Source of the DNA: a virus
Length of the DNA stretch: 64,000 nucleotides
Direction: 5' to 3' (one strand)
Virus record (IMG/VR): IMGVR_UViG_3300047318_000369
Location: 1 to 64,000 of that record
Shown here piece after piece: positions 27,292 through 52,137 of the stretch (positions are counted from its first letter, which is position 1; each line of letters opens with the position of its first letter). The notes under the pieces are model-generated. The model made no database searches. It saw nothing but the letters and a program-made list of their open reading frames with translations, and had not been told where the DNA came from. The position numbers were made by a program, and so were the translations under genes.

Positions 27292-27714
27292 GTGAGCGGT
27301 AAAACGGTGGTGCGGGATGCCCGCCGCTGGTGGGTGGTTGGCTGTGACGGATCGATGCTGCACTTCTATGAAGCGCCGACCAGCCGCAGTGCGGTCGCGG
27401 CATTCAGGGCCAACCTGGTCGAGATGGAGCGTGGATCTGGCGTCAGCATTCGCGACGCACAGTTCATCGTGCGCGGGCTCCAGCCGCACGTCGTCGAGGG
27501 ACCCCTGACGACGCAACAGGCATACGAGCTGGACCTCGGCTGGACGTGGGCCATTTGCTGGGCGGACGGATTCCACGGAACCTCAGTGTCTCCCGTCGGC
27601 CCGATTGACCGCGCAACTGCCGCGTCTCGGCTCGGCGAGCAGACCACGGCGCGACTGGAACGCTCCGCGCGGGTGCGGTACGGCCTCGACCTGATAGGCG
27701 GCAAGGCTGCATGA
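27292..27714 (+). CDS. Hypothetical protein upstream of recombinase
   Basis: 140 residues with a strong GAGGGGGAG before GTG 27292. Segments include RDARRWWVVGCDGSMLHFYEA (in part) and LDLGWTWAICWADGFHG, a Trp-rich alpha/beta protein. It overlaps the recombinase start by 4 bases, so the two are likely co-translated; a partner role (for example a directionality factor) is possible but there is no recognised fold. Confidence 0.6.
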   Translation: MSGKTVVRDARRWWVVGCDGSMLHFYEAPTSRSAVAAFRANLVEMERGSGVSIRDAQFIVRGLQPHVVEGPLTTQQAYELDLGWTWAICWADGFHGTSVSPVGPIDRATAASRLGEQTTARLERSARVRYGLDLIGGKAA

Positions 27715-28853
27715 ACGAATCCGACGAGGTGGTCGACGCCGAACTGGTGGACGACGACCACCTCCCCGCCCGGGTCGAACCCAGCCCCGCCGCCCGGCCG
27801 CTGGTCGACAGGCACACAGTGCTCGCACCCGGCGAACTGCTCGCCCTCGCAGGCGACGGCCCGACGTACACCGAGGCCGACTTCTACATCTCGCAGGACA
27901 CTGCCGACCGAGCCGCACGCGCCAAATCCGAGAACACCCGCCGAAACCGCGACTACACCGTCGAACGCTTCCAGACGTGGTGCCAGCAGCAAGGCCGAGT
28001 CGCGCAGCCGTGCACCACCGCCACCTACACCGAATACGGCGCCCACCTCATCCGCCAAGGCCTCAAAGCCACCAGCATCAGCGCCTACATGAGCCACATC
28101 CGCATGTGGCAGCCCGTCGGCCAACGTCCCGACGCCACCCGCTTCCGCGACCAGCTCGCCACCTACCGGCGCGAACAGCCGCGCACCAACCGAAAGAAGC
28201 AGTCCGAGCCGATCCGGCTGCCCGACCTGATGGCCATGCTCGCCACCTGCGACCGCAGCCCCGCCGGACTCCGCGACGCCGCCCTGCTCGCCTGCGGATA
28301 CGGAACCCTCGCCCGCCGCATCGAACTCGCCGACCTCCTCATCGAAGACCTCACCATCAGCGACAAGCGGATCGTCGTCGACTTCATCATCGACAAGACC
28401 CACCAAGACGGCGACCTCCCACCGACCCCCATCCCTGACCGGCCCGACATCAAGCCCGTACAGCGGCTGCGCGACTGGCTGGCGACGCTCGCCAAGCTCG
28501 GTGCCACCACCGGACCCGTATTCCGTGCGCTCACCTCCGGCGGCACACTCCAGACCCGCACCCTCGCCACAGAACGCGGCGACCACATGACCGGCGACGC
28601 CATCAACGCCATCGTCAAGAAGCGGGCCATCGCCGCCGGACTGGAGAACGCGGCCAAGATGACCGCCCACGGCCTCCGCGCCGGACCCACCACCGACCTC
28701 CGCAAGGCAGGCGTCACCGGCAAGCGCCTGAACAGGGCGGGCCGATGGGCAGACGACTCCCGCATGCCCGAGGTCGTCTACGTGCGCTACGGGGAGGACG
28801 AAGAAGGCGATGCCCTGTCAGCGATCCCCGTGTACGAGGAGACCACCGAGTAG
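27711..28853 (+). CDS. Tyrosine recombinase 1
   Basis: 380 residues. Acidic N-terminal extension (about 50 residues), a core-binding helical domain (NTRRNRDYTVERFQTWC), then the catalytic domain. Visible catalytic boxes are GTLARRIELADL (Arg), TAHGLRAG (His-x-x-Arg) and GRWADDSRMPEVVYVRY (Trp/His position and nucleophile Tyr). This looks like a complete Cre/Xer-type recombinase, distinct from the integrase at 32008. Role: integration, multimer resolution or an acquired element. Confidence 0.85.
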   Translation: MNESDEVVDAELVDDDHLPARVEPSPAARPLVDRHTVLAPGELLALAGDGPTYTEADFYISQDTADRAARAKSENTRRNRDYTVERFQTWCQQQGRVAQPCTTATYTEYGAHLIRQGLKATSISAYMSHIRMWQPVGQRPDATRFRDQLATYRREQPRTNRKKQSEPIRLPDLMAMLATCDRSPAGLRDAALLACGYGTLARRIELADLLIEDLTISDKRIVVDFIIDKTHQDGDLPPTPIPDRPDIKPVQRLRDWLATLAKLGATTGPVFRALTSGGTLQTRTLATERGDHMTGDAINAIVKKRAIAAGLENAAKMTAHGLRAGPTTDLRKAGVTGKRLNRAGRWADDSRMPEVVYVRYGEDEEGDALSAIPVYEETTE

Positions 28854-32007: not shown

Positions 32008-33234
32008 TCAACTCTCCCAGACATCCCGCCACCCCAGACTCCCCAGCGCCCTTACGAACAGCTCCTGCAGGCCATCCAGCCGCTCCTGCCGCATCGGCGG
32101 CGTCGCATGCTGGTAAGTGCCCTTGATGCCAGGGTACTTGTGCCCCGCCTGCTCGAACGCCAACACTGCCTTCACCCCGATCTGCGCCTGGTAGGTGTCG
32201 TGCGAGTGTCGGAGATCCCGCAGTGTCAGCCCCGGCTTGATCGGCTCCCACGCATCGGTACGGCCGTCCGCCACCTTGCGGATAAGTTCGGTCAACGTTC
32301 CCCGCGGCCACCAGCTGCCGTCCTTGCGCGCGAAGACGAAGTCGTGCGGCCACTGGGTCAGGCGCGCTTCCAGCAGGGAGGCCAGGAACGGCGGAACGTC
32401 GATATCGCGGGCACTCTGCGCATTCTTCGTGGGCTCCACCCCGCGGAACCTGATGCGCCGGCCGTCGTCGCCGTACTTGTAGTACTCGACGAGCGCGCCT
32501 GCGTCTTTGTCGATGCGCACGATGGGACAGGTGAACACACCGTCGTCGTGCCGCTGCCTGCGCTCCAGGAGGGTGTTGTGCCGGCGCAGCCCCAAGGCCT
32601 CCTCCACCCGGAGCCCGAGGAAGCCGATCGACAGCACGAGCATCCCGTCGATCGGCCCCATCCGCCGCGCCATCTGCAGTACTTCCTCGGGGCGCGCCCA
32701 CATCTCTTCGTGCTCGGTCTTGCGCTTCTTCGCCGCCTCTGCGGGCAGGCCGGTCAGGCGGCGCCCCTGAAGCGGGTTGACGGCCAGACAGCGTGCGTCG
32801 ACGGCACCCATGAGGATCTGCGACATGAGCCTCACGCATATCTTCGTCGTGACGTGAGCGCACGTCAGGCTGCGGGCCCACGCCTCTATTTCGAACCAGG
32901 TGATGGCGGCCAGCGGAACGTTCTCCCAGCGCGGCAGGACGGTCTGCGTCAGCCGTTCGCGCCGGTTCATGACGGTCTGGCCACGCGGCCTCTGGGCGGC
33001 CATCCACTCCTCGGCGAACTCGCCGAACGTCTTGCGTGAGAGCGCGGGGTCGATCCACCGGCCGGCCCGCATGGCGGCCTCCTGCTCCTCGCCCCACTTC
33101 TCCGCGGTCCCCTTGGTGGGGAATCCGGGCTCGCTGCCCCACGTGCCGTCAGGTTTCTTGTACCTGGCACGCCAGGTGTACTTGGTGGTCCTCTTCCCGT
33201 CCCTGACCTTGTGGACCTTCTCGGCGTAGGCCAT
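32008..33234 (-). CDS. int: Tyrosine integrase 2
   Basis: 408 residues. N-terminal AP2-like arm-binding domain (RARYKKPDGTWGS, then FPTKGTAEKWGEE), SAM-like core-binding domain (TFGEFAEEWMAAQ) and catalytic domain. The active-site boxes are GLRVEEALGL (Arg), LTLRDLRHSH (His-x-x-Arg), EQAGHKYPGIKGTYQH (His and Tyr). This is a standard actinophage tyrosine integrase beside the repressor, so it is the more likely enzyme for prophage integration. Confidence 0.92.
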   Translation of the reverse strand: MAYAEKVHKVRDGKRTTKYTWRARYKKPDGTWGSEPGFPTKGTAEKWGEEQEAAMRAGRWIDPALSRKTFGEFAEEWMAAQRPRGQTVMNRRERLTQTVLPRWENVPLAAITWFEIEAWARSLTCAHVTTKICVRLMSQILMGAVDARCLAVNPLQGRRLTGLPAEAAKKRKTEHEEMWARPEEVLQMARRMGPIDGMLVLSIGFLGLRVEEALGLRRHNTLLERRQRHDDGVFTCPIVRIDKDAGALVEYYKYGDDGRRIRFRGVEPTKNAQSARDIDVPPFLASLLEARLTQWPHDFVFARKDGSWWPRGTLTELIRKVADGRTDAWEPIKPGLTLRDLRHSHDTYQAQIGVKAVLAFEQAGHKYPGIKGTYQHATPPMRQERLDGLQELFVRALGSLGWRDVWES

Positions 33235-46437: not shown

Positions 46438-46583
46438 GCCACAACGGCACCCTCCCCACCGTCGCCAACTGGTACGTCAACCAGCTCGCCACCTACGGCT
46501 GGCCCGTCCTCGTCGTCACCGCCATCGCGTGGACCGCCGCCTGGTGCGGCCTCGGCGTCCTCCTCAACGGGGGGCGGTCATGA
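46434..46583 (+). CDS. Single-span membrane peptide (49 aa)
   Basis: 49 residues from GTG 46434; hydrophobic TYGWPVLVVTAIAWTAAWCG plus a short tail. Four-base overlaps at both ends. Unknown role. Confidence 0.55.
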   Translation: MSHNGTLPTVANWYVNQLATYGWPVLVVTAIAWTAAWCGLGVLLNGGRS

Positions 46584-46882
46584 ACCCCGACCTGTACGGC
46601 GCGTGGCTCACCGCCGGCAACAACCTGCAGCCCGTCGGGGCGTGGCTCGGCCGGAACTGGATCTGGCTCGCCGCCGCAGTGGTGGCCGCCGGATTCGCCT
46701 GGTGGGCGCTGCGGCGGGAACTCCGGGCCGCTGGCGAGCACGTCGCGGCCATCCTCGCCGGTCAGCGGCAGCCCGGCACCGACACGGGGCTGTACCTCAA
46801 ATGCGTCGCCATCTACGGCGACTGCGACGAACTCGACCGACTCCGCGATGCCATCGACCAGCACCGGAAGGACATGCCGTGA
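46580..46882 (+). CDS. Small membrane protein
   Basis: 100 residues. One span (WIWLAAAVVAAGFAWWAL), then a helical soluble tail with CVAIYGDCDELDRLRDAID. Third of three adjacent membrane genes. ATGA overlap before the WhiB gene. Confidence 0.55.
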   Translation: MNPDLYGAWLTAGNNLQPVGAWLGRNWIWLAAAVVAAGFAWWALRRELRAAGEHVAAILAGQRQPGTDTGLYLKCVAIYGDCDELDRLRDAIDQHRKDMP

Positions 46883-47262
46883 GCCGCTACGACTGGATGG
46901 ACAGCGCGGCCTGCGCGCAAGTCGACCCCGAAATCTTCCACCCCACCGGCAACCCCACCCGGCAGGCCAAGAACGTGTGCGCCCGCTGCCCCGTCCAACG
47001 CCAATGCGCCAGCTTCGCCCACGCCGTCGAAGGCGAAGTCAGCCACCCCCACCGGCACGGACTGTGGGCCGGAATGTCCGCCCGCGACCGGGCCGGCCGC
47101 GCCGTCGAAGACGCCCGGCTCAAGCGCGACGACACCATCTGGCGGCTCCACACCCGCGGCGGCATGACCGCCGACGAAATCGGGGTGGCCGTCGGCTGCG
47201 ACGCACGCACCGTCTACCGCGTCCTCAAGCAGACCCGCGGCTCCTACAAGGAGGCCGCGTGA
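46879..47262 (+). CDS. WhiB-family regulator with C-terminal HTH
   Basis: 127 residues. SAACAQVDPEIFHP, CARCPVQRQC and GLWAGMS are the WhiB features: four Cys for a 4Fe-4S cluster and the G-[VIL]-W-x-G turn that contacts sigma factor. Beyond the usual end is RTRGGMTADEIGVAVGC followed by RTVYRVLKQTRG, a helix-turn-helix not found in typical WhiB proteins. Likely takes over host sigma-dependent transcription. Tandem with the next WhiB gene. Confidence 0.88.
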   Translation: MSRYDWMDSAACAQVDPEIFHPTGNPTRQAKNVCARCPVQRQCASFAHAVEGEVSHPHRHGLWAGMSARDRAGRAVEDARLKRDDTIWRLHTRGGMTADEIGVAVGCDARTVYRVLKQTRGSYKEAA

Positions 47263-47636
47263 ACACCGCCGACTGGCGCCACCTCGCGGCCTGCCTCGAC
47301 CACGACCCCGAACTCTTCTTCCCCGTCGGCGACTCCAATGCCGCCCGCCTACAGGCAGAGGACGCCAAGAGGATCTGCCACACCTGCCCCGTCGTCGAGC
47401 AGTGCGCCCAGTGGGCCATCGACAACCGCATGGAGACCGGCGTGTGGGGCGGCCTCGACGAAACCCAGCTCCGCAACATCCGCCGCCACCGCACCCCATC
47501 ACGACGCACACCCGCCCGCTGCGGCACACGGCCCGGCTACAAGCGCCACCACCGCGAAGGCACACCCGTCTGCCAGCCCTGCAACGACGCCAACCGGGCT
47601 TACGCCAACCAACGACTCCAGAAGGAAGCCGCCTGA
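47259..47636 (+). CDS. WhiB-family regulator with C-terminal zinc knuckle
   Basis: 125 residues. LAACLDHDPELFFP, CHTCPVVEQC and GVWGGLDE give a canonical WhiB domain. The C-terminal extension is CGTRPGYKRHHREGTPVC then QPCNDANR, a Cys/His knuckle. GTG start in a GTGA overlap with the first WhiB gene and overlap with the methyltransferase start. Two WhiB genes side by side with different extensions suggests divided roles. Confidence 0.88.
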   Translation: MNTADWRHLAACLDHDPELFFPVGDSNAARLQAEDAKRICHTCPVVEQCAQWAIDNRMETGVWGGLDETQLRNIRRHRTPSRRTPARCGTRPGYKRHHREGTPVCQPCNDANRAYANQRLQKEAA

Positions 47637-49105
47637 TGATCACCCTGACCGACCTGTTCTGTGGGGCTGGCGGCTCCTCCACGGGCGCCATCCAGATCCC
47701 GGGCGTGGAAGTCGTCATGGCTGCGAACCACTCCCGGCACGCCATCGACACCCACCAGGCCAACCACCCCGAAACCCGACACGACTGCGCCGACATCAGC
47801 CAGGTCGTCCCCGGCCGCTACCCCGCCACGGACATCCTGTGGGCCTCCCCGGAGTGCACCAACCACTCCGTCGCGAAGGGCAAGAAGCGGGACCACGGCG
47901 AGTGGGACGACGGCCTGTTCGCCCCCGACGGCGTCAGCGAGGCAGAGATCCGCTCCCGCGCCACCATGTGGGACGTCCCACGCTTCTGCGAAGAGCACGC
48001 ATACCGCATCGTCATCGTCGAGAACGTCGTCGACTCCCGCTGGTGGGGACCCAAGTCACGGCCCGGAGCGATCTACGAGTCGTGGCTGCACACCATGCGG
48101 CACGGCCTCGGCTACTCCCACAAAGCCGTCTACCTCAACAGCATGTTCGCCGCCATGCTCGGCGACGGCGCCGCCCAGTCCCGCGACCGCAAGTACGACG
48201 TGTTCTGGCTCCCCGAGAAGGTCGAGCACGCCCCCGACTTCGACAAGTGGCTGCGGCCCACCGCCAGCTGCCCCATGCACGGTCCAGTCCGGGCGATCCA
48301 GTCCTGGAAGACAACGAAGATGTGCTCGCCAACCCGACCGTGGGGCCGGTACGGCAAGACCGGCCAGTACATGTGGCGCTGCCCGCAAGTCGCCTGCCGC
48401 AACGCCATCGTCACCCCCACAGTCCGGGCCGCCTCCCAGATCATCGACTGGGGACTGCCCGCCCGCACCATCGGCGAACGCAAGGGCACCAAAGACGAGT
48501 TGGCGGCCAACACCCTGCGCCGCATCAACGCCGGATACGAGAAGTTCTCCCGCCCATTCCTCGTCCCGAACGAGGGCCGCGAGAAGCCCCCGATGGACAT
48601 CCTCGACCCGCTGCGCACCGTCACCACCCGCAACGAGACCGGCGTCGCCCTGCCGCCCTACATGGTGGAACTCCGCGGCGGCGGATCCTCCCACCGCGCC
48701 ATCACCGAACCGCTGTCCACAGTCACCGCAGGCGGCAACCACCACTTCCTGGTGAGCGCCCCCGACATGGTCCTGCCGTACTACAGCAGCAGCATCGCCC
48801 AGCCGGCCGCGCAACCACTCGGCACCGTCACAACCGTCGAGGGCCACGCCGCGGTGTATGGGGGCCGGGTGCGATCGGTCGACGACTGCCGCTACCGGAT
48901 GTTGGAGCCGCACGAGTACCAGGCGGCGATGCACTTCCCCAAGGGGTACATCCTCACCCCGGCCGATAAGCGCACCAAGGTCAAGATGCTCGGCAATGCC
49001 GTCACGCCGAACGCCGCCCGCGACCTAGTCGCGATGGCCGTCGAAGCACTCACCGGCGAAGACATCGAGTGCCCCACCGCGCCGCAACTCGCAGCCGCCG
49101 CATGA
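47636..49105 (+). CDS. Cytosine-5 DNA methyltransferase
   Basis: 489 residues. Motif I DLFCGAGGSS at 6-15; motif IV reads SPECTNHS with Cys74 in place of the usual PPC; motif VI IVIVENV at 125-131. A target-recognition region contains two Cys pairs (CPMHG, CPQVACRNA). The C-terminal YRMLEPHEYQAAMHFP and GNAVTP complete motifs IX and X. It likely protects phage DNA from restriction. No cognate nuclease is next to it. Confidence 0.9.
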   Translation: MITLTDLFCGAGGSSTGAIQIPGVEVVMAANHSRHAIDTHQANHPETRHDCADISQVVPGRYPATDILWASPECTNHSVAKGKKRDHGEWDDGLFAPDGVSEAEIRSRATMWDVPRFCEEHAYRIVIVENVVDSRWWGPKSRPGAIYESWLHTMRHGLGYSHKAVYLNSMFAAMLGDGAAQSRDRKYDVFWLPEKVEHAPDFDKWLRPTASCPMHGPVRAIQSWKTTKMCSPTRPWGRYGKTGQYMWRCPQVACRNAIVTPTVRAASQIIDWGLPARTIGERKGTKDELAANTLRRINAGYEKFSRPFLVPNEGREKPPMDILDPLRTVTTRNETGVALPPYMVELRGGGSSHRAITEPLSTVTAGGNHHFLVSAPDMVLPYYSSSIAQPAAQPLGTVTTVEGHAAVYGGRVRSVDDCRYRMLEPHEYQAAMHFPKGYILTPADKRTKVKMLGNAVTPNAARDLVAMAVEALTGEDIECPTAPQLAAAA

Positions 49106-49227: not shown

Positions 49228-49515
49228 TCAGTCGGAAGTGCCGGCCATGACGCCGTCGTACAGGTCGGCGTAGTGCGCGCGGAAGGTGTTCGCGACCGAC
49301 GTGTCCTCGTCGAAGACGGTGCGGAGCTGGGCAACCAGGGCCGCTTGAGCCTTCGCCTGCTCGTAGAAGTCCATGCCGACCAGGACGACGACCTGCTTGC
49401 CGCGGGACGTGAGCACGGTCGTCTCGTCGAAGTAGCGGGCCCTCTCGATCGCCTCAGCGAGCGAGTTCCGTACCTCGGCGATCGACTTCTGGTGCTCCTT
49501 CTTCGGCGCGGTCAT
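49228..49515 (-). CDS. Phd/YefM-type antitoxin-like protein
   Basis: 95 residues on the minus strand inside a rightward operon. SIAEVRNSLAEAIERARYFDETTVLTSRGKQVVVLVGMDFYE (in part) is the Phd/YefM fold: N-terminal DNA-binding region and a C-terminal tail that would bind a toxin. No toxin gene lies beside it. ATG 49515 is six bases after the -10 (leaderless). It may be a stand-alone regulator or an anti-toxin against host systems. Confidence 0.75.
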   Translation of the reverse strand: MTAPKKEHQKSIAEVRNSLAEAIERARYFDETTVLTSRGKQVVVLVGMDFYEQAKAQAALVAQLRTVFDEDTSVANTFRAHYADLYDGVMAGTSD

Positions 49516-49521
49516 GTCCGG

Positions 49522-49577
49522 AGTGTACCTCAGGATCATGGTGTACATGAGCGCGTTCAACGCTATGATGTACATGA
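49522..49577. promoter_or_regulatory. Divergent promoters with TGTAC operators
   Basis: Three GTGTAC/ATGTACAT sites at 49523-49528, 49541-49548 and 49568-49577. The leftward -10 TACACT (49527-49522) lies six bases before the antitoxin ATG and overlaps the first site. The rightward -10 TATGAT (49564-49569) has TGTACA 16 bases upstream (49542-49547) as its -35-like element and lies next to the third site. Autoregulation by the Phd-like protein is inferred. Confidence 0.6.
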
Positions 49578-49672
49578 ACCCGTGATGCATGGGACGGGAG
49601 TCCTCATGCCCCCGTAGGCGGCGCAACTTTCCCTGCCCTACGACCAATGCGAACTCCCGAGAGAAGAGACAG

Positions 49673-50575
49673 ATGGGTTACGAGCTGCGCCGGCAAATGC
49701 GCGAAGCGCTGGGGCCGGAGATCACTGGTCTTCAGCGTGCTGTCGCGCTGGAGATCGCCGACGACGCGAATGAGCGGACGCGGCGCAGCTGGGTGGCCCT
49801 TGAAGACCTTGCCCGCTGGACCGGCGCCAAGGACGGCAGCGTCGTCCGCAACGCCCTCAAGCGGCTCGCCGCAGCCGGATGGGAGTTCCGCGTGCCGATC
49901 GGAAAGGGGAAAGACGGACGCGCGCTGTACGCCGTACCCGGCACCCGGATGACCTTCTTGGTGCCTCACTTCGAAGGGGGAGCAGGGGCTACCCCTTCCG
50001 TGAATAAGGGAGAGCCAGGGCTACCCCAAGGGGGAGCCGCCGCTACCCCTTCGAAGCCACAAGGGGGAGCAGGGGCTCACTCAGAAGGTGCCACGGCTCC
50101 TTCAGAAGGTGCCGTGGCTCCCCCCTTCTCCTCAGACTCCTCAGACTCAAAGAAGCTAGCTAGCCAGCAGGCCGCCGCGAGTGAACCCGACTACGGCATC
50201 CCGGATGAGGTCCGGCCGCTCATCAACGGCATCGCCGCCGCAGGAGTCAACGTTCGCTGGCCCTTCCGCGGCAACGACTGGTTCCCGCTGATCGCGCTCA
50301 TCCGGAAATCCGGCGCCAGCGCGATGGTCGACGTTGCAATCAAGATCGCCAAGCGCACATCCGTCGACTCGGCCCGCTACTTCCTCCCCGCCTGGACGGA
50401 CCTGGCGCCGCTGCCCCCCGCCGACTTCCCCCGGCCAGTCCTGCATGCCGTACCCGACGAGCACCTGTCCACAGCAGACCAGCGTGTCGCTGTCGGCCAG
50501 GCCCTCGCCGCCAAGTTCCGCGAGGAAGAACGCCTCGCCCTAGAAGCCGGCCACGCCAATCAGGAGCCCGCATGA
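49673..50575 (+). CDS. Replication initiator with internal repeats
   Basis: 300 residues. N-terminal winged helix-turn-helix (TGLQRAVALEIADDANERTRRSWVALEDLARWTG in part). The central linker is built from repeats GGAGATPS, GEPGLPQ, GGAAATPS and GGAGAHSEGATAPS encoded by direct DNA repeats. The C-terminal domain, HAVPDEHLSTADQRVAVGQALA, is probably the helicase-loader contact. This layout is that of lambda O-type initiators. Start ATG 49673. Confidence 0.75.
   Translation: MGYELRRQMREALGPEITGLQRAVALEIADDANERTRRSWVALEDLARWTGAKDGSVVRNALKRLAAAGWEFRVPIGKGKDGRALYAVPGTRMTFLVPHFEGGAGATPSVNKGEPGLPQGGAAATPSKPQGGAGAHSEGATAPSEGAVAPPFSSDSSDSKKLASQQAAASEPDYGIPDEVRPLINGIAAAGVNVRWPFRGNDWFPLIALIRKSGASAMVDVAIKIAKRTSVDSARYFLPAWTDLAPLPPADFPRPVLHAVPDEHLSTADQRVAVGQALAAKFREEERLALEAGHANQEPA
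49974..50128 (+). repeat. Iteron array inside initiator gene, candidate origin
   Basis: Six direct repeats: 49974-49998 AAGGGGGAGCAGGGGCTACC..., 50006-50030, 50028-50052, 50061-50080, 50085-50103 and 50106-50128. Each contains an AAGG...GGCT...CC(T)TTC partial dyad. Position is between the DNA-binding and the C-terminal domains, where lambda has oriLambda. Coding for GGAGATPS-like units explains part of the conservation; the DNA dyads suggest it is also functional as DNA. Confidence 0.65.
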
Positions 50576-50814: not shown

Positions 50815-52137
50815 GTGCCCGACGATCTCGACTCCGACTTCGGCGTCCCGTTCGAACGTGTCCCGCCGCACGACGCTTACGCCGAACAGGCAGCGCTCGG
50901 CGCCTGCATGCTTTCGCCGGCCGCCTGCGCCGAAGTCCTTGCCGCCGTCGCGCCGGAAGCGTTCTACCGGCCGCAGCACGTCACGATCTACCACGCGGTC
51001 GCCAACCTGTTCCTGGCCGGCGAGCCAGTCGATCAGATCACCCTGGCGAAATACCTCGGCGACTGCGGGGACCTCACCCGGATCGGCGGCCCCGCCTACC
51101 TGTCCGAGCTGGTGCGGGCCGTACCAACCGCAGCGAACGGCGAGTACTACGCCGACATCGTTCAGGACCGCGGCCTGCGCAGGTCCGTGATCGAACTCGG
51201 TGCGCGTCTCGTACAGATGGGCTACAGCCCTGACGGCGAGACCGCCGAGATCATCGAACGCGCCGTGACGATGTCCCGCGAACTCCGTGACCGCAGCGGC
51301 GAGGACGACGACCTTCCGGCCGAGGACATCCTCGACTTCGTCCAGCACGAGGACACCTACGACTGGATCGTGCCCGGGCTGCTGGAGCGCATGGATCGCA
51401 TGATCCTTACGGCGGGCGAGGGTGGCGGGAAAAGTGTTTTGCTTCGGCAGATCGCCGTCACGCTCGCCGCGGGCATCCACCCGTTCGAGACGTGGAAGAC
51501 GATCGACCCGATCAGGGTGCTGGCTCTCGACTGTGAGAACGGTGAGGCCGCGTCCCGCCGCAAGTTTCGGCCGCTGCTCGACGCCGCCGCCAGCCTTGAG
51601 CGCCCCGTCGGCCGCGGCCAGTTCCACATCCGCTGCCGGCCCGAAGGCCTCGACCTCACGCGCCCGCAGGACCGGTCGTGGGTGATGCGCCGTGTCGAGG
51701 ACTTCAAGCCCGACCTGCTGATCGTCGGCCCGATCTACCGCCTGCACGCCGGCGACCCCAACTCGGAAGAGCTCGCCCGCAAGGTGTCCGTCGTCCTCGA
51801 CGAAGCCCGCGCCACCGCGGGCTGCGCCGTGTTCATGGAGGCCCACAGCCCGCACCACAACGGCTTCGGGCAGCACCGCACCCTGCGCCCCGTCGGCTCC
51901 TCGCTGTGGATGCGCTGGCCCGAGTTCGGCTTCGGGCTGCGGCCCGTCGAGGACGCGAAGTCCGCCGAAGACGGCGACGGCGCCCGCGGCCGGCGCTTCC
52001 TGCCCTGGCGCGGCATGCGCGACGAGCGCAACTGGCCGCAATTCATCAAGCAGGGCGAGAAGTGGCCCTGGATGTCCTACCGCCCCGTCGACACCAACGA
52101 ATTCACGGGCCACTCCGAGACAGGAGCCATCTGGTGA
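50815..52137 (+). CDS. DnaB-like replicative helicase
   Basis: 440 residues from GTG 50815, directly after the loader stop. N-terminal DnaB_N domain (AEQAALGACMLS..., to about residue 120), then an RecA-like core with Walker A GEGGGKS at 201-207, ALDCENGE, and DLLIVGPI as Walker B. The core is closer to RepA/AAA_25 type than to classical DnaB. It is fused to a DnaB-type N domain, an unusual mix. Likely the fork helicase. Confidence 0.85.
   Translation: MPDDLDSDFGVPFERVPPHDAYAEQAALGACMLSPAACAEVLAAVAPEAFYRPQHVTIYHAVANLFLAGEPVDQITLAKYLGDCGDLTRIGGPAYLSELVRAVPTAANGEYYADIVQDRGLRRSVIELGARLVQMGYSPDGETAEIIERAVTMSRELRDRSGEDDDLPAEDILDFVQHEDTYDWIVPGLLERMDRMILTAGEGGGKSVLLRQIAVTLAAGIHPFETWKTIDPIRVLALDCENGEAASRRKFRPLLDAAASLERPVGRGQFHIRCRPEGLDLTRPQDRSWVMRRVEDFKPDLLIVGPIYRLHAGDPNSEELARKVSVVLDEARATAGCAVFMEAHSPHHNGFGQHRTLRPVGSSLWMRWPEFGFGLRPVEDAKSAEDGDGARGRRFLPWRGMRDERNWPQFIKQGEKWPWMSYRPVDTNEFTGHSETGAIW

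Follow-up and report, generated by a model that had tools for sequence, protein, structure and literature searches.

Two adjacent phage WhiB proteins with different C-terminal tails, one an apparent fusion of a two-gene WhiB/helix-turn-helix pair

Introduction

How might a phage use two overlapping genes that both encode a WhiB domain, one followed by a helix-turn-helix (HTH) and the other by a Cys/His knuckle? The pair, which an earlier note had correctly placed at 46879-47636, lies in the window analyzed here, a stretch of 64,000 nucleotides that forms part of a virus record of 90,552 bases (IMGVR_UViG_3300047318_000369). Its phage gene set includes a terminase, portal, protease, major head protein, tape measure, endolysin, and two integrase-like genes, marking the source virus as a tailed phage that is probably temperate; it is an actinobacterial phage, probably of the Streptomyces group. 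The integrase-like genes (27711-28853, forward strand, and 32008-33234, reverse strand) are separated by ~3 kb, are encoded on different strands, and match phrog_1 with E values of 4e-11 and 6e-30, respectively.

Results

Organization of the WhiB locus

WhiB-A and WhiB-B are part of a tightly packed forward gene run, with the following features.

46580..46882, forward strand: open reading frame 5' of WhiB-A, 100 aa, one hydrophobic stretch by eye
46879..47262, forward strand: WhiB-A coding sequence, GTG start, 127 aa (PF02467, 65 bits, E 8.4e-18)
46894..47094, forward strand: WhiB domain of A, residues 6-72 (Cys 12, 34, 37, 43; GLWAG turn)
47116..47247, forward strand: helix-turn-helix tail of A, residues ~80-123 (HTH_23, AlphaFold, structural matches)
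47259..47636, forward strand: WhiB-B coding sequence, GTG start, 125 aa (PF02467, 80 bits, E 2.1e-22)
47274..47468, forward strand: WhiB domain of B, residues 6-70 (Cys 12, 40, 43, 49; GVWGG turn)
47520..47582, forward strand: Cys/His knuckle of B (C88, H97, C105, C108), a sequence motif and predicted metal site
47636..49105, forward strand: C5 cytosine DNA methyltransferase (PF00145, E 1.4e-18; phrog_116, E 1e-62)
49673..50575, forward strand: replication-initiation-like protein (HTH_36, E 9e-4, below cut-off; phrog_6643, E 3e-4)
50815..52137, forward strand: DnaB-like helicase, marker of the replication module (PF00772, E 2e-29; phrog_19, E 6e-33)

The first open reading frame, which has no credible family match among Pfam and PHROG profiles, ends in a 4-base overlap (GTGA) with the start of WhiB-A, and the stop of WhiB-A overlaps the start of WhiB-B in the same way, with the methylase beginning directly after B. 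A Phd/YefM-type antitoxin gene is found on the reverse strand of the replication region (49228-49647; PF02604, E 1.4e-9). A promoter and terminator scan of the WhiB locus gave no signal above chance and no promoter target, and a DNA-level search of the locus against phages returned matches mostly to the adjoining methylase.

WhiB-A combines a WhiB domain with a helix-turn-helix

Both proteins score far above the curated PF02467 (WhiB) cut-off of 23.6 bits and, as the earlier note had claimed, keep all four cysteines, here in the spacing C-xn-C-x2-C-x5-C, and the G-x-W-x-G turn, so that sequence evidence identifies A as a WhiB protein. The fold model of A is confident in one part only. Its WhiB portion, modeled from a shallow alignment and without the cluster, is poor (block pLDDT mostly 56-66, pTM 0.47); the model did not recover the WhiB fold, and with Foldseek it gave no hit of significance, nor any to WhiB, which we read as a limit of model quality. 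Residues ~80-120 are modeled at a block pLDDT of 85-93, as part of three helices (68-93, 98-105, and 109-123).

The HTH_23 profile falls below its cut-off on the tail of the window copy taken alone (E 5e-4), and it matches all seven tailed members of the A family, with a best E value of 3e-7. In a structural search with the A model, residues ~80-127 align to HTH domains, among them SigD region 4 and those of the DeoR and Lrp types, at ~1.2-2.5 A, many at 1.2-1.6 A over 41-49 residues, with low Z scores of ~3.5-5. Profile and model together identify the tail as a helix-turn-helix domain, in agreement with what had been proposed from the sequence.

WhiB-B combines a WhiB1-like domain with a Cys/His knuckle

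The nearest solved structure to WhiB-B is Mycobacterium tuberculosis WhiB1 (5oay, 6ono/6onu), which it matches both by sequence (chain 5oay, E 1.7e-25) and in modeled fold (the WhiB1:SigA complex 6onu, E 3.3e-6). The tail of WhiB1 is merely short and basic and, unlike that of B, lacks a knuckle. The tail of B carries the motif CGT-x2-GY-x2-H-x7-C-x2-C (C88-G-T, Y94, H97, C105-x2-C108), bearing out the predicted knuckle, and AlphaFold models residues 91-124 as two helices with a pLDDT of ~82-87. The four putative ligands (C88, H97, C105, C108) do not vary between the window copy and the three relatives closest to it; in distant relatives C88 is replaced by His or one ligand is lost.

A Pfam search found no match for this tail. 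The profile phrog_12112, however, aligns with WhiB-B end to end, tail included (residues 2-123 to positions 3-126 of 130, E 3.2e-27), which indicates that the B architecture belongs to an existing phage family that is already catalogued. The WhiB-like protein of Streptomyces phage mu1/6 likewise has a tail of B's length and layout, and both it and phrog_12112 have diverged from B in sequence. Used alone as a query, the B tail finds WhiB-like proteins of phages mu1/6 (E 4e-3), Obliviate, BaileyBlu, and ArV2, as well as phage HTH proteins, an HNH homing endonuclease, and a small terminase. The shortness of the query keeps all of these matches weak (E 4e-3 to 0.6), but from their spread over WhiB-like, HTH, HNH, and terminase proteins the knuckle appears to be a small, promiscuous module found on proteins that handle DNA in phages. 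It would bind zinc and probably helps bind nucleic acid.

The tails are conserved while the second gene turns over

Both genes are present in the contig closest to the window (L003/L066), at 98% (A) and about 87% (B) identity, and again in L004/L069, at 50% (A) and 88% (B). Homologues of A in L003/L066, L067, L068, L069, L070, L072, and L094 are of similar length and have the same tail, in which the HTH core residues are kept at ~50% overall identity. Tails are retained in relatives down to ~46% identity, which excludes a chance origin. Disordered or chance tails are also ruled out by the confident models, by HTH_23 in all tailed relatives, and by selection on the B tail; structure prediction, the check that the earlier note had named, and comparison with relatives thus show extensions that are folded in models and kept in close relatives.

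In L067, L068, L070, L072, and the Streptomyces-group genome locus L094/L106, the A architecture is kept and the second gene is changed. What it encodes varies: an HTH protein that ends in an HNH-like part (L067, L068, and L072), an HTH-knuckle protein (L106), or a WhiB-HNH-like-knuckle protein (L005 and L070). The HNH label of the middle parts comes from inspecting the sequence and from a single weak Pfam match (E 0.004). In L008, a different small protein precedes the WhiB-knuckle gene. Viral contig L070 (3001-4762) has a whiB triplet consisting of WhiB-HTH, WhiB-HNH-like-knuckle, and a variant of the latter.

WhiB-B is under purifying selection relative to its three relatives, with dN much smaller than dS for both the core and the tail (tail, dN 0.04-0.12 and dS 0.27-0.46). 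For A, the two closest copies differ in few positions, mainly silently. Between the window and L069, dN is about equal to dS for A (core, 0.39 and 0.38), in contrast to B (dN 0.07, dS 0.16). This difference, like that in protein identity to the same contig, suggests that A diverges much faster than B or has been exchanged. We do not claim positive selection on A, since a third-position GC content of 91% depresses dS.

Outside viral contigs, a strong full-length A relative occurs in one of 296 sampled genomes (the genus of the Streptomyces prasinopilosus record), and a scan of genome contigs yielded just two distant WhiB proteins. Further WhiB-HTH fusions are encoded on phage-sized Streptomyces plasmids and in Streptomyces genomes. 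L020 and L021 are circular non-mobilizable Streptomyces plasmids of ~86-88 kb, the size of a phage genome, that carry RusA, SSB, and WhiB-HTH genes and are perhaps phage-plasmids; the plasmid gene table omits several whiB genes of this type.

WhiB pairs and tails are widespread in actinobacterial phages

The earlier note had regarded phage WhiB proteins as usually single and without such tails. The first part holds to the extent that most phages have one WhiB copy, but two homologues occur in 182 phages (Sharma et al. 2021, PMC8612146), and two sampled cluster F mycobacteriophages have two whiB genes together with an HTH gene. The second part is not supported by our census of 90 distinct WhiB frames from the fetched loci: tails of at least 40 residues beyond the WhiB domain occur in 37 of them and shorter ones in 53, although the set was collected by similarity to A and B, and these counts are therefore not population frequencies. 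Among the tails, 13 are labeled HTH (nine A-type tails recognized by profile and another four recognized by inspection or Pfam), 11 knuckle, three HNH-like plus knuckle, three zinc-ribbon-like, and seven other. WhiB pairs and WhiB tails are thus already widespread in actinobacterial phages.

In a poorly resolved WhiB tree of 77 columns, A and B fall in different parts, and the HTH label needs six changes, of which the starred branches force at least two. A recent tandem duplication of A and B is ruled out, since the two share 35% identity over 72 residues and are separated in the tree.

A split form of WhiB-A in cluster F mycobacteriophages

A tblastn search with the HTH tail of A alone gave only weak matches (E 0.3 or more; 271 of 283 records from Mycobacterium phages), so homologous HTH genes had to be found by profile. 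The A-tail profile detects an HTH gene in the neighborhood of whiB in each of DeadP, GigiOuiOui, and Fruitloop, with E values of ~1e-8 to 1e-6 overall and ~1e-8 for the first two. Like the window, the cluster F1 mycobacteriophages (Cheoctovirus) DeadP and GigiOuiOui have two whiB genes and an HTH homologous to the A tail. In these phages a tailless WhiB (gp65 and gp55, respectively) is followed directly by the HTH gene (gp66 and gp56), so that, unlike in A, WhiB and HTH belong to two proteins, the latter of which has a second HTH. Their other WhiB, one gene away, differs from the window proteins in its zinc-ribbon-like tail. In Fruitloop, the homologous HTH gene is separated from whiB by another gene, and direct adjacency is therefore not universal.

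Since the HTH of A is homologous to a separate gene that follows whiB in some cluster F phages, the window carries this known two-gene whiB/HTH pair in fused form. The existence of fused and split forms suggests that WhiB and HTH act together. No account of WhiB-HTH fusions came up in the open literature searched, itself only part of the whole literature.

Sigma-A contact residues in A and B

WhiB1, WhiB3, and WhiB7 dock on region 4 of sigma-A via conserved aromatic residues, and in WhiB3 a Phe-to-Ala change at the equivalent of WhiB1 F18 abolishes sigma binding (PMC10245118). WhiB-B keeps all four sigma-contact aromatics of WhiB1 (W3, F17, F18, and W60, corresponding to W6, F20, F21, and W63). 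WhiB-A is aromatic at W6, F20, and W63 but has His at the F18 position, as do most members of its family; L094, of the same architecture, has the standard Phe. His occupies this position in nine of the 90 WhiB frames, and those individually identified are WhiB-HTH proteins; one of them, L108, lies outside the A clade. Given the loss of binding in the WhiB3 mutant, A may dock on sigma weakly, differently, or not at all. Residue conservation thus appears to fit sigma-A binding for B, and less well for A.

Discussion

The pair can be read as a phage regulatory cassette beside the replication module. Each WhiB core would bind a [4Fe-4S] cluster and, like WhiB1, WhiB3, and WhiB7, contact the principal sigma factor of the host at region 4, and each tail would add a second contact, the HTH of A binding DNA beside the -35 element. 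WhiB-A would then do in one chain the job that a WhiB and a neighboring HTH protein may share in some cluster F mycobacteriophages, and A and B would regulate phage or host promoters. For the two proteins as a pair, we lean toward a role as adaptors in the style of WhiB1 and WhiB7 that act on region 4 of host sigma-A. Sigma-factor adaptors with promoter specificity of their own were what the earlier note had suggested, which is a sensible mechanism. That A redirects promoter choice through its own HTH is a more doubtful proposition. Equally tentative is the combined view in which WhiB-A is a single-chain sigma-A adaptor whose HTH re-targets the holoenzyme to phage promoters, and the locus a cassette that exchanges tails (HTH, knuckle, HNH-like) on WhiB cores for promoter choice.

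There is precedent for parts of this adaptor reading. WhiB7, with its AT-hook, and WhiB3, with its Arg-rich motif, sit on sigma-A region 4 and add DNA contacts of their own (PMC10245118), although they do so in the minor groove and have no helix-turn-helix domain. Structure searches also matched the Streptomyces WhiA-WhiB complex (8dy7/8dy9), in which WhiB on RNA polymerase works with a separate DNA-binding partner, the logic proposed here for A. That partner role is filled by WhiA, which, unlike the A tail, is an unrelated, larger protein that is not fused to WhiB. The reported cytotoxicity of Girr gp57, a cluster F counterpart, in M. smegmatis (PMC11075535) also counts in favor of the adaptor reading. 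Weighing against it are the His of A at the F18 position, the model of A, in which no WhiB fold appeared, and the promoter scan, which showed no target.

A different outcome is suggested by what phage WhiB proteins are reported to do to their hosts. The TM4 protein (WhiBTM4, gp49) is reported to have a regulatory effect in its host, where it acts on whiB2 as a dominant negative (PMC8612146), and Girr gp57 (a cluster F counterpart), Hammy gp53, and TM4 gp49 are reported to be cytotoxic, the first in M. smegmatis (PMC11075535). By analogy, A and B could be inhibitors that displace host WhiB from sigma-A, as WhiBTM4 would with WhiB2, and block, for example, division; their tails would serve stability or recruitment to DNA only and confer no new promoter specificity. 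The closeness of B to WhiB1 and its intact sigma contacts would suit such an inhibitor, but this account alone leaves unexplained the repeated gain of HTH tails, forced at least twice by the tree, and the split WhiB/HTH pair, and we consider it rather unlikely.

Less probable still is that the WhiB part of A has lost sigma binding and become redox- or NO-responsive, making A an Fe-S-gated HTH repressor or activator and otherwise an ordinary DNA-binding regulator. The replacement of the key Phe by His in nearly all A-type proteins, with cluster cysteines and HTH conserved, is what such a switch might leave behind, yet the positions of W3, F17, and W60 are still aromatic in A, and L094 retains the Phe. 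Finally, similar modules do occur on neighboring or unrelated genes of this mosaic locus (the HTH-knuckle protein of L106, the HTH proteins with an HNH-like end in L067 and L068, and the WhiB-HNH-like-knuckle proteins of L005 and L070), and the tails might be functionless leftovers of shuffling with HNH and HTH genes; purifying selection on the B tail and the retained HTH core of A make this very improbable.

With WhiB pairs and tails already common, what is new is the fusion of WhiB to an HTH, together with the homologous split form, and the way in which the second gene turns over. Returning to the adaptor reading, the pair resembles a modular device for steering host RNA polymerase, and the fused protein with its cluster F counterpart yields a testable prediction, namely, that WhiB and HTH form one unit on that polymerase. 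If this is true, tail exchange would offer phages a simple route for redirecting the same sigma factor to new promoters.
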